From NCBI GenBank assembly GCA_017521485.1, contig JAFXCL010000033.1, positions 1 through 62,781 on the forward strand: DNA of 62,781 nt, read 5' to 3'. This stretch comes from Oscillospiraceae bacterium (GTDB lineage Bacteria; Bacillota; Clostridia; Oscillospirales; Oscillospiraceae). Below, one piece after another: positions 3,593 to 9,762 of the stretch. A model generated the notes under the pieces. It did not search any database and was not told the DNA's origin. It saw only the letters and a program-made list of their open reading frames with translations. Position numbers and translations under genes: made by a program. Position 1 is the stretch's first letter. Each line of letters starts with the position of its first letter.

Positions 3593-3690
3593 ATTTCACC
3601 CCACGGTTGGTTGATCTCTCCCCATTCAACCACCGGTTCGTGGACTATTTATGCTAGCTTAGCTATACTGATGGCGAAAGGAGGATGCCA

Positions 3691-4299
3691 ATGGATCAAG
3701 TAAAAATTGGAAAATTCATTGCCGAATGCAGAAAGAAAGCAAACTTAACCCAAATGCAGCTGGCAGAAAAATTAGGCATCACCGACAGAGCCATATCTAA
3801 ATGGGAGACAGGCAAATCTCTTCCCGATTCTTCCATTATGCTGGAGCTTTGCGGTATGTTAGGCATCACCGTCAACGATCTATTATCCGGGGAGGTAGTG
3901 ACTATGGATCATTACAACAAAAATTTAGAAAACAACTTGCTTGAAATGGTAAGGCAGAAAGAACAAGCAGACAAGAGGCTCTTGTCTTTGGAAGTGTTTA
4001 TCGGCATTACGGCAACAATCGTTCTATTTATATTCATCTTCCTTGCCGCCTTTGTGGAAATGGAAATCTGGCTCAAAGTTTCTCTTATAGTCCTTGGCTT
4101 TGTTCTGTTTTTTGCAGGCTGCTTCTACGCCTTGCGGATTGAGCAGGTAGCAGGCTATTACGCATGTAAAGAATGTGGGCACAAATACGTTCCCACATAT
4201 AAAGCAGTGAATTTAGCCCCCCATATGGGCAGGACCAGATATATGCGCTGCCCGGAGTGTGGCAAGAAGTCCTGGCAGAAAAAAGTATTGTCTAAATAA
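3691..4299 (+). CDS. XRE-family regulator with two TM helices and zinc ribbon
   Basis: A 202-residue protein. The N-terminal Cro/CI helix-turn-helix (about residues 5-60) includes LTQMQLAEKLGITDRAISKWETGKSLPD. A short linker leads to two transmembrane helices (about residues 105-150). The C-terminal zinc ribbon has the cysteine pairs CKECGHKY and CPECGKK. This places the DNA-binding domain at the inner face of the membrane. The ATG at 3691 is 6 nt after AAAGGAGG; the ATG at 3685 touches that site and is unlikely. The ligand and targets are unknown; a metal or envelope sensor is possible. Confidence 0.85.
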   Translation: MDQVKIGKFIAECRKKANLTQMQLAEKLGITDRAISKWETGKSLPDSSIMLELCGMLGITVNDLLSGEVVTMDHYNKNLENNLLEMVRQKEQADKRLLSLEVFIGITATIVLFIFIFLAAFVEMEIWLKVSLIVLGFVLFFAGCFYALRIEQVAGYYACKECGHKYVPTYKAVNLAPHMGRTRYMRCPECGKKSWQKKVLSK

Positions 4300-7108: not shown

Positions 7109-7179
7109 GCAAGTCTACGGAGCATAGGTTGTCCGTTCCGTGCTTTTGTGGTATGCTTGTGGGGAAAGGATGTGGGGCA

Positions 7180-7764
7180 ATGAATTGCTATGTAACAGGG
7201 ACGACTATTAAGCAGTTGCGGGAGAGCCGAAACCTGACCCAGGGGGAGCTGGCTGAGAAGATCGGTGTCAGCAGCAAAACCGTCTCCAAATGGGAGACTG
7301 CCAAAGGCCTGCCGGATATTTCTCTGCTTCAGCCGCTGGCGCAGGCATTGGGTATCTCCGTGATCGAACTGATGAACGGTGAGCATATCACCAACAAGAA
7401 TATTTCCGCCAATATGCTACGGTGCAAGTTCTATGTGTGTCCTGTCTGCGGAAATGTGATCCACAGCACCGGCGATACAGTTGTCAGCTGTTGCGGTATC
7501 ACCTTACCTGCCCTGGAAGCAGAAGACGCAGACGATGCCCACGGCATCACCATAGAAAAAGTGGAGGACGAGCATTTTATCTCGATCCCCCACCCTATGA
7601 CCAAACAGCATTTTATTTCCTTTGTGGCATTCGTAACCGACCACCGAACGCAAATGGTAAAGTTCTACCCCGAAGGCAACGCCGAAACCCGCCTGCAACT
7701 GAGAGGCAGAGGGTATCTGTATTACTACTGTAACCAACACGGCCTGTTTTTTAAAAAAGTATAA
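7180..7764 (+). CDS. XRE HTH fused to desulfoferrodoxin-like iron module
   Basis: A 194-residue protein. Residues 8-62 form a Cro/CI helix-turn-helix (LTQGELAEKIGVSSKTVSKWE). Residues 85-194 align with class I desulfoferrodoxin (superoxide reductase). Cys87, Cys90, Cys104 and Cys105 match the desulforedoxin-type center I. His121, His138 (PHPM), His144, Cys184 and His187 (CNQHG) match the five ligands of the catalytic non-haem iron center II. The lysine before the first His ligand of the enzyme (EKH) is absent (DAH here), which favours a redox or oxygen sensor over an active reductase. The ATG at 7180 follows GAAAGGA by 9 nt. It stands alone upstream of tRNA-Pro. Confidence 0.85.
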   Translation: MNCYVTGTTIKQLRESRNLTQGELAEKIGVSSKTVSKWETAKGLPDISLLQPLAQALGISVIELMNGEHITNKNISANMLRCKFYVCPVCGNVIHSTGDTVVSCCGITLPALEAEDADDAHGITIEKVEDEHFISIPHPMTKQHFISFVAFVTDHRTQMVKFYPEGNAETRLQLRGRGYLYYYCNQHGLFFKKV

Positions 7765-7829: not shown

Positions 7830-7905
7830 CCAGGTGTAGCGCAGTTGGTAGCGCGCCTGCTTTGGGAGCAGGATGCCGCGAGTTCGAGTCTCGCCACTTG
7901 GACCA
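7830..7905 (+). tRNA. tRNA-Pro (anticodon UGG)
   Basis: A complete cloverleaf. Acceptor CCAGGTG pairs with CACTTGG. The anticodon stem CCTGC/GCAGG holds the loop TTTGGGA (anticodon TGG). The T-arm is GCGAG-TTCGAGT-CTCGC, and the encoded ACCA lies at 7902-7905. A TATAAT box lies about 13 nt upstream. Confidence 0.97.
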
Positions 7906-8373: not shown

Positions 8374-9762
8374 ATGAGCGCAGTGCGCAGTAACGCAGAT
8401 AAAATACAGATATTCGAAAAAATGCCTGTTCCAAAGGCATTGGCAACGATGGCGATCCCCACCATTATCAGCCAGCTGATCACGCTGATCTACAATATTG
8501 CGGACACCTGGTTTATCGGCCAGACAGACAATCCTTATATGGTGGCAGCCTCCAGCCTTGTGCTGACGGTCTTTTTGATGACCGTCGCCATTACCAACCT
8601 TTTCGGTGTTGGCGGTGGCACACTGGCAGTGCGGCTACTTGGCAGTGGCGAAGAACAGGAGGCACGAAAGGTCGTATCCCTGAGCCTTTCTCTGGCAGCA
8701 GGCGCTTCTCTGCTTTATTCCGTTTGCTGTCTGATCTTTATGAATCCCCTGCTGCGGTTTCTGGGCGCAAGTGATAATACCATTGGCTATGCCCGCCAAT
8801 ACCTCTTCTTCGTAGTGGTGCTGGGCGGCATTCCCACAGTGCTCTCTTCCACGATGAGCTCTATGCTGCGAAATGTGGGATTTTCAAAAGAGGCAGCTTT
8901 TGGCTTAAGTCTTGGCGGCATCCTCAATGTGGTGCTGGACCCTCTGTTTATGTTCGTTTTACTCCCTGACGGCTATGAGGTTATGGGCGCAGCCATTGCC
9001 ACCTTGCTTTCAAACTGCATTTCCTTTATTTATTTTATTTTGATCTATCGGCGGGTTCAAAACACATCTATTTTATCACTTCCTAAGCGCATCGAAAAGG
9101 TTCGCCCCCAGTCGGTCAAATCCCTGTTTTCTGTAGGCGTACCTGCGGCGATCGGTGTTTTGCTGTTTGATGTGACCAGTATGGTCCTGAACCGTCTGGT
9201 ATCCTCCCACGGAGATCTTCAGCTGGCAGCAATGGGCATCGTCTTAAAAATCGAACGGCTGCCTATGAATATCGGCATTGGCTTTTGCCTGGGTATGGTA
9301 CCTCTGGCCGCCTATAACTATGCCTCCGGAAACTATTCTCGGATGCGCAAATTTTTCACCGCTGCTATGCTTTCCGGACTTGCCGTATCGGTAACGTGCG
9401 TTATTCTCTATTCCTTTGCTGCTCCCTGGCTGATCCACGCCTTTATTAACGATCCGGAGACCATAAGCTACGGTGTTCCCTTTCTCAAAGCGCGAAGCCT
9501 TGCCTCTCCTGTGATGTTTTTAAGCTTCCACCTTGTGCATTTTATGCAGGCAATCAACAAAGGTAAGATCTCCTTCTGTATGCCCATCATCCGTCAGCTT
9601 GTTTTGAACATTCCTATTTTGCTGCTGCTAAACCGCCTTTTCGGTATGTCCGGTATCATCTGGACTCAGCTGACTGCAGACTCCATCAATGTGATTTTCT
9701 CTTTCATCTTCTATTTCTGCGTTATGAAAACATTAGATCGTCGAAGAGATGAGAAACTCTAA
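8374..9762 (+). CDS. MATE family multidrug/Na+ efflux transporter
   Basis: A 462-residue polytopic membrane protein with about twelve transmembrane helices in two six-helix halves. The N-terminal MATE signature is ATMAIPTIISQLITLIYNIADTWFIGQ. The DinF/NorM superfamily exports cationic drugs or metabolites using H+ or Na+ gradients; the substrate cannot be deduced. It has its own SigA promoter, a GGAGG ribosome binding site, and a terminator shared with the convergent hydrolase gene. Confidence 0.93.
   Translation: MSAVRSNADKIQIFEKMPVPKALATMAIPTIISQLITLIYNIADTWFIGQTDNPYMVAASSLVLTVFLMTVAITNLFGVGGGTLAVRLLGSGEEQEARKVVSLSLSLAAGASLLYSVCCLIFMNPLLRFLGASDNTIGYARQYLFFVVVLGGIPTVLSSTMSSMLRNVGFSKEAAFGLSLGGILNVVLDPLFMFVLLPDGYEVMGAAIATLLSNCISFIYFILIYRRVQNTSILSLPKRIEKVRPQSVKSLFSVGVPAAIGVLLFDVTSMVLNRLVSSHGDLQLAAMGIVLKIERLPMNIGIGFCLGMVPLAAYNYASGNYSRMRKFFTAAMLSGLAVSVTCVILYSFAAPWLIHAFINDPETISYGVPFLKARSLASPVMFLSFHLVHFMQAINKGKISFCMPIIRQLVLNIPILLLLNRLFGMSGIIWTQLTADSINVIFSFIFYFCVMKTLDRRRDEKL

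Follow-up and report, generated by a model that had tools for sequence, protein, structure and literature searches.

A helix-turn-helix protein with a superoxide-reductase-derived module in an Oscillospiraceae bacterium: a likely autoregulated transcription factor and its candidate second target in relatives

The stretch of DNA analysed here (the window, 62,781 nucleotides from an Oscillospiraceae bacterium) encodes a protein in which a Cro/CI-type helix-turn-helix (HTH) head is followed by a desulforedoxin-like (Dx) and a superoxide-reductase-like (SOR) module. We consider it likely, and the best reading of the data, that this HTH-Dx-SOR protein is an autoregulated transcription factor with the SOR-derived iron site as its sensor. 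The sequence comparisons point to this architecture, to conserved iron ligands, to a predicted operator of near-constant geometry at the gene's own promoter, to a second target in relatives, and to covariation of the operators at both places. A transcription factor had been proposed in an earlier note on the same DNA, and this part of its reading is well supported by the sequence, the conserved own operator, and the covarying copy before chloramphenicol-acetyltransferase-like (CAT-like) genes of relatives.

On rechecking positions 7180-7764, the open reading frame, coordinates, and residue numbers of the earlier note all proved correct (Table 1). The Cro/CI HTH that it had placed in the N-terminal part was recovered with Pfam as HTH_3 (PF01381, E 4.1e-16, residues 10-64), at 59.2 bits against a gathering score of 23, as expected of the XRE/Cro-CI type, and the structure model has predicted HTH helices at residues 7-16, 21-28, 32-39, 47-57, and 61-66. 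The note had further proposed a desulfoferrodoxin-like module, to be checked by a domain search with PF01880 and HTH_3; in this search, Desulfoferrodox (PF01880) matched residues 135-190 significantly (E 2.1e-7; 31.9 bits against a cut-off of 22.2). Furthermore, the NCBIfam model dfx_rbo matches residues 82-190 (E 6.1e-11), at 42.6 bits and thus below its cut-off of 146.9 for the SOR enzyme, and a sequence search of the PDB returned 1dfx (E 2e-9). PF06397 (Desulfoferrod_N), which matches the canonical SOR of the same genome, was not reported for the fusion module at E <= 0.01. The Dx cysteine motif of the window protein is CX2CX13CC, its loop being two residues shorter than in the CXXCX15CC motif quoted in SORGOdb. 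The fold, predicted from a 67-row alignment (pLDDT 87.6, pTM 0.62), is matched best in the PDB by desulfoferrodoxins and SORs, including 1dfx (E 3.6e-9, target TM 0.73) and 1y07_D (target TM 0.78), while the predicted head resembles the P22 c2 repressor 3jxb_C (target TM 0.89). Domain and fold searches therefore agree on the order that defines HTH-Dx-SOR proteins, an N-terminal HTH and then the Dx and SOR modules.

Table 1. Coordinates of the HTH-Dx-SOR gene, its modules, and its predicted promoter elements in the window.
Feature	Position	Strand	Basis
HTH-Dx-SOR gene, 194 aa	7180..7764	+	ORF, domain searches, structure prediction
Cro/CI-type helix-turn-helix, residues 7-66	7198..7377	+	HTH_3 match 10-64; predicted helices
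Desulforedoxin-like ribbon CX2CX13CC, residues 82-112	7423..7515	+	Sequence, NCBIfam dfx_rbo span
Superoxide-reductase-like module H121, H138, H144, C184, H187, residues 119-190	7534..7749	+	Sequence, domain and structure matches
Predicted operator CTACGGAGCATAG, imperfect palindrome CTACG-N3-CRTAG, just upstream of -35	7115..7127	+	Pattern match, conservation
Predicted -35 element TTGTCC	7129..7134	+	Geometry relative to -10 in relatives
Predicted -10 element TATGCT, 17 bp spacer	7152..7157	+	Spacing in relatives

Directly downstream of the fusion gene, the window holds a tRNA-Pro (TGG; 7830-7905) and after it a MATE-like transporter ORF (8374-9762, named by eye). Positions 3685-4299 encode another XRE regulator, which contains a hydrophobic stretch and two C-terminal CxxC motifs that by eye resemble a zinc ribbon.

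The fusion or its 3' part was found in 26 of 99 relatives (E <= 1.2e-39), and matches, some of them partial, occur in 119 of 400 genomes of the same family (E <= 1e-25) and in 65 of 291 genomes of the class (E <= 1e-20). A scan of named genomes with the C-terminal module yielded at least 536 relatives, of which the best 80 were used. These 80 come mostly from Oscillospiraceae and other Clostridia and include Treponema ruminis, Peptostreptococcus sp. D1, Faecalibacterium longum, Pseudoflavonifractor capillosus, and an Acidaminococcaceae MAG. The HTH is whole in 77 of the 80, the gene being cut or interrupted in L134, L172, and L208. In five loci (L024, L028, L208, L297, and L303), the 3' part starts at the same HTH codon (RETG.G.PD), directly behind what appears by eye to be the end of a large serine recombinase, and 5' halves ending at SKWET(G) are present in two genomes (L051 and L052); a mobile element seems to use the HTH coding sequence as its integration site. 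Two further copies deserve mention. In F. longum (L193), the gene from position 3794 encodes 381 aa, with a C-terminal extension to HTH-Dx-SOR that by eye resembles a GNAT acetyltransferase. A 67% identical copy with operator is found in a record labelled as an unverified 'Bacteriophage sp.' from human stool (L280, MT835563.1), which may be mislabelled and in reality a bacterial contig.

In the window, a palindrome with the consensus TCTACGNNGCGTAGGTTG lies directly next to the -35 element of the fusion gene's promoter, the TTG of the operator motif being the start of that element. This operator is the sole zero-mismatch occurrence of CTACGNNNCRTAG in the assembly of the own genome (84% complete). 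Among the 26 loci of relatives, 20 carry a 19-mer near TCTACGNNGCGTAGGTTGC about 66-80 nt before the start. The pattern-defined 19-mer is absent from the remaining six: L005, L023, and L024 have too little or interrupted upstream sequence, while L026-L028 are distant and L028 is also interrupted; operator variants are visible by eye in L026 and L027. A matrix built from the 20 loci was then scored out of sample on 73 of the best 80 named relatives, five training duplicates and two loci with short upstream sequence having been dropped. A score of at least 12 within 120 nt was reached in 65 of these 73, compared to 0/72 downstream stretches, 0/67 stretches 1.4-1.5 kb upstream, and 1/73 when the best of 20 shuffles per stretch was taken. 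The eight low scorers comprise six with an in-register variant, L144 with a site at 148 nt, and the interrupted L208.

The geometry of the promoter is nearly constant, with the best -10 element lying 17 bp downstream of the -35 hexamer in 71 of 76 relatives. Assuming a transcription start about 7 nt after the -10 element, the operator is centred near -43. A generic promoter scan of the window did not report this operator-linked promoter. For 40 further members from the class, 14 scored at least 12; by eye, a site or variant is present in 33, with TANNNT exactly 17 bp on in 29. The own-promoter operator is thus conserved across genera and reaches a spirochaete. In L339 and L342, the site lies 439 and 458 nt upstream, ahead of a small ORF that precedes the gene. 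Such an ORF of ~115 aa is found upstream of HTH-Dx-SOR in L282 (2638-2982), L337, L339, and L342, and the sites found in L282, L339, and L342 all precede the ORF and not the gene directly. The small ORF of L282 had no Pfam match.

The operator also follows the gene from genome to genome. Twenty exact copies of the 17-mer are spread over 18 of the 99 relatives' genomes, and the reversed-pattern control occurs in none of the 99. The 17-mer was found in 17 of the 26 relatives with the gene compared to 1 of the 73 without it, although HTH matches exist in all 99. Of the 20 occurrences, 15 immediately precede the gene, two precede a 5' part of it at the end of a contig, and two precede CAT-like genes; the last belongs to a promoter-like stretch that no gene follows, in a relative in which the fusion was not matched. 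A survey of neighbouring ORFs (at least 90 aa, within about 4 kb) revealed no family in more than 5 of the 80 loci, and since even the largest neighbour-gene cluster is confined to these 5/80 loci, it is the gene itself with which the operator travels.

A wide regulon, by comparison, can be set aside. In 48 genomes chosen from the best 80 named relatives, 58 matches with up to one mismatch were found, 41 of them at own promoters, and the 17 others were no commoner than in the reversed control (17 vs 17). These 17 non-self matches fall into 16 regions: 13 are inside mechanical ORFs of at least 80 aa, two lie before sister XRE genes, and two belong to a stretch that is duplicated within one contig. 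For the 19-mer with up to one mismatch, 61 relatives gave 22 matches compared to 10 in the control; among the 16 of these 22 that were opened, 13 are at own promoters (two of them before contig-end 5' parts) and 3 before CAT-like genes. The own genome gave 36 matches at this threshold and 258 in the control, which is poorly matched there. The regulon detectable from sequence is therefore tiny.

The duplicated stretch (L245, G100:C51, positions 419 and 1969) has one copy followed by a gene remnant with only start and end, and an operator-promoter without a gene behind it is found in L033 (G048:C93, 1133-1149); both are possible fossils of lost gene copies. The similar operators at position 1501 of L243 and of L244 precede sister XRE regulators with hydrophobic C-terminal parts, and the head family may share a mode of autoregulation.

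The CAT-like genes behind the extra operator matches form one subfamily, its members being 60-78% identical to one another and at most 40.5% identical to the other CAT proteins compared. An operator precedes the subfamily genes of genomes G005, G009, G032, and G115 (scores 31.8, 28.4, 31.8, and 14.0), at a distance of 396 nt in G005 and 324 nt in G032. When the 400 genomes of the same family were searched with one subfamily member, 10 more were identified (46-69% identical to the query), and for 9 of these a site lies 72-110 nt before the match. Five of the nine sites score 12.8-24.2; the other four (1.4-7.8) were accepted by eye and do not exceed the top score reached in unrelated CAT loci (7.8). 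TANNNT follows exactly 17 bp on at all nine. In G446, the tenth case, the CAT-like gene is preceded on the same strand, at about 40 bp, by the 3' part of an interrupted HTH-Dx-SOR gene. The regulator gene, or at least its 3' part, is present in 9 of these 10 genomes compared to 119/400 overall (p 1.1e-4), with only the 3' part matched in G446 and G512, and G579 (97% complete) has a CAT site without the regulator. A generic link to CAT genes was rejected on the basis of 30 loci scored for 33 matches and 21 for 21 matches, as no locus outside the subfamily exceeds 7.8, bar a truncated CAT-family fragment of T. ruminis (20.0). The own genome, in its 84% complete assembly, gave no CAT match, and the second target is therefore one seen in relatives only.

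Own and CAT operators change together. In G638 and G584, both sites are the identical 19-mer TCAACGGAGCGTTGCTTGC; the form CAACGG..CGTT is common to both in G471 and G767, and they share GCGTTGATTG in G476 and TCTGCG in G722. Summed over 12 pairs, the mismatches amount to 34, compared to a mean of 55.7 for shuffled pairing (reached in 0 of 20,000 shuffles). G512 and G446 were excluded because their regulator gene is interrupted, and G579 because it has no regulator. Two 8-pair sets, in which near relatives were thinned to one per genus except for g251 with two, gave 27 vs 42.0 and 28 vs 39.1 (p 5e-4 and 7e-4), and these sets draw pairs from three of the four genomes whose CAT sites were accepted by eye. 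Regulator and CAT genes are on different draft contigs in 11 of the 12 genomes and ~13 kb apart in T. ruminis. Shared promoter ancestry could add to the similarity. A recognition-helix rule, in which residue 33 changes from K to Q or R along with a change from CTACG to CAACG, had fitted four genomes and was abandoned with L304, which has CAACG together with K33. Binding of the element by the fusion protein would be the simplest account of operator, geometry, and covariation, and we regard it as highly probable from these comparisons.

Turning to the iron sites, all nine ligands are at the positions that had been noted (C87, C90, C104, C105, H121, H138, H144, C184, and H187), including the His4Cys set of centre II expected of an SOR enzyme. 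The reported absence of the active-site lysine also holds, as the residue before H121 is an alanine (DAH and not EKH). Conservation was examined in 142 aligned sequences, 102 from relatives and named genomes (four exact duplicates dropped, near-duplicates such as L010/L146 retained) and 40 of the 65 from the class sample. All nine ligands are present in 123 of the 142, and the conservation that the earlier note required among homologues hence holds for most members but not for every one. C87, C90, C104, and H138 are kept in 142/142, C105 in 138 (His in the other 4), H144 and C184 in 139 each, H187 in 132, and H121 in 130. Since 19/142 members lack at least one ligand, not all of them can have both full centres. 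Lysine directly before H121 (position 120) was found in 5/142, while an acidic residue two positions before H121, at the place of the glutamate of SORs, is present in 103/142. On these counts, most members retain the iron ligands and few have the catalytic lysine. The absence of the lysine alone does not exclude enzyme activity, and centre I could be bound to zinc instead of iron.

The retained ligands could also belong to a trigger enzyme, that is, a protein that still reduces superoxide or another oxidant and that its HTH makes its own repressor. Such proteins have a precedent in PutA of proline metabolism, which acts as its own repressor. Here the active product would be the module itself, because the sole near-universal target of the operator is its own gene; non-self operator matches at the level of the control, the lack of conserved neighbour genes, and the strongly kept centre II ligands are all compatible with this. 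Furthermore, lysine-less SORs seem to exist: a PDB title names a T24K mutant of Ignicoccus hospitalis neelaredoxin, so the native residue is Thr, at what we take to be the place of the lysine in a presumably active native protein. However, it speaks against an enzyme that the lysine is found in so few homologues, that the CX13CC loop is unlike that of the enzyme, and that the acetyltransferase target in relatives is better explained by a true regulator. Moreover, contig C43 of the own genome (locus L001) encodes a 124-aa canonical Dx-SOR with CX2CX15CC and EEKH (PF01880, 1.9e-17; PF06397, 1.8e-6). The fusion is thus not the only SOR-type gene of the cell, and with an EKH-bearing Dx-SOR in the same genome the enzyme duty seems covered. 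We therefore judge a trigger enzyme unlikely. The canonical SOR gene is followed by peroxiredoxin-like and disulfide-reductase-like ORFs (names by eye); a link of the operator to this gene was considered and dropped, as no site was seen before it by eye.

Alternatively, the module may be concerned with metal status or structure, its Cys and His sites holding Zn or Fe for folding, for dimerisation, or for a report on supply, with redox not being the signal. Desulfoferrodoxins are dimers, and His in place of C105 in 4/142 sequences is compatible with Zn. In two related genomes (L046 and L048), the operator has the CAT gene on one side and a ZIP-like transporter ORF (by eye) on the other, and an annotated ZIP gene follows the HTH-Dx-SOR homologue on a Monoglobus plasmid (L281, NZ_OY725727.1). 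From these two genomes and the one plasmid arrangement, a ZIP transporter is a possible target of the operator, but no further ZIP gene was found in the operator-match regions that were opened, and the ligands of the redox-active centre II are kept nearly as strongly as those of centre I, which makes a module without a redox role rather improbable. Finally, the palindrome might serve a related XRE regulator in place of HTH-Dx-SOR, as the similar sites before the sister regulators of L243 and L244 with their other C-terminal parts could suggest. This is very hard to reconcile with an exact 17-mer in a single one of the 73 relatives that lack the gene yet have HTH matches, and with a site that changes along with the HTH-Dx-SOR gene across the family.

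For an autoregulated transcription factor, the following mechanism can be proposed. The HTH would bind the palindrome, whose centre is about 43 bp upstream of the predicted transcription start and which touches the -35 element of the gene's own promoter; in some relatives the HTH would also bind a like element before a CAT-fold acetyltransferase gene at another place in the genome. The desulfoferrodoxin-derived C-terminal part would most likely act as redox sensor and dimer platform, and a change in iron state at centre II (His4Cys) may alter the hold of the head on DNA. From ligand retention, lysine loss, and the behaviour of centre II known from desulfoferrodoxins, we infer that the iron site is probably the sensor. 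The protein would accordingly be expected to bind iron; candidate signals are superoxide, O2, NO, and iron status, and regulation may be positive or negative. A site centred near -43, just upstream of a weak -35 element, would fit activation of the lambda-CI/OR2 type at least as well as repression.

Compared with known systems, the fusion module resembles the Dx-SOR enzymes (1dfx, 2ji1) in its fold and in the order and identity of the nine ligands, and differs from them in the HTH head, the missing catalytic lysine, the shorter Dx loop, and a shorter spacing from the first to the second His. Like P22 c2, lambda CI, and other Cro/CI (XRE) regulators, the protein has an HTH_3 head and a palindromic (here predicted) operator at its own promoter, whereas its metal-site C-terminal module replaces their usual oligomerisation domain. 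PerR, SoxR, FNR, and NsrR couple redox sensing at an Fe site to DNA binding, in folds unrelated to that of the fusion, and we know of no iron regulator of these types that uses an SOR-derived site.

The earlier note had cautioned that related architectures may exist, and this was justified: HTH-Dx-SOR is a class of SORGOdb, published in 2011 (PMC3116461). In the portions of that paper available to us, 19 of 325 proteins are listed under this class, the Dx motif is given as CXXCX15CC, and HTH-Dx-SOR, with an N-terminal HTH before the Dx-SOR module as in the window protein, is a sequence class for which those portions state no operator, target, or function (PMC3116461). The CX13CC loop, the rarity of the lysine, the operator, and the second target in relatives are what is described here for the window family in addition. 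The note had known of no characterised example, and none was found in the open-licence PMC literature, nor a functional study of HTH-Dx-SOR proteins among these papers. TrtA of Treponema denticola is likewise an XRE-type regulator in an anaerobe and is tied to oxygen stress, but according to its description it is a different XRE protein of 104 aa with no recognised similarity after residue 81, and it was discarded as a characterised relative (PMC12724145). The architecture was therefore already known; new are the operator and the covarying second target in relatives.

If the iron site is a true sensor, this would be a new use of the SOR fold. Many strict gut anaerobes are thought to manage without OxyR or SoxR, and superoxide sensing in these organisms is poorly understood. 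It is conceivable, and we offer it tentatively, that HTH-Dx-SOR proteins are widespread factors of anaerobes in which a lysine-less SOR iron site serves as a redox switch, activating from near -43 their own gene and in some species that of an acetyltransferase, in a self-contained circuit for sensing superoxide (or NO) unlike those of PerR, SoxR, and FNR. With the operator and its matched second target, what was a curiosity of domain architecture becomes a testable circuit, made up of a promoter with its 19-mer, a candidate target, and naturally occurring pairs of operator and regulator variants.
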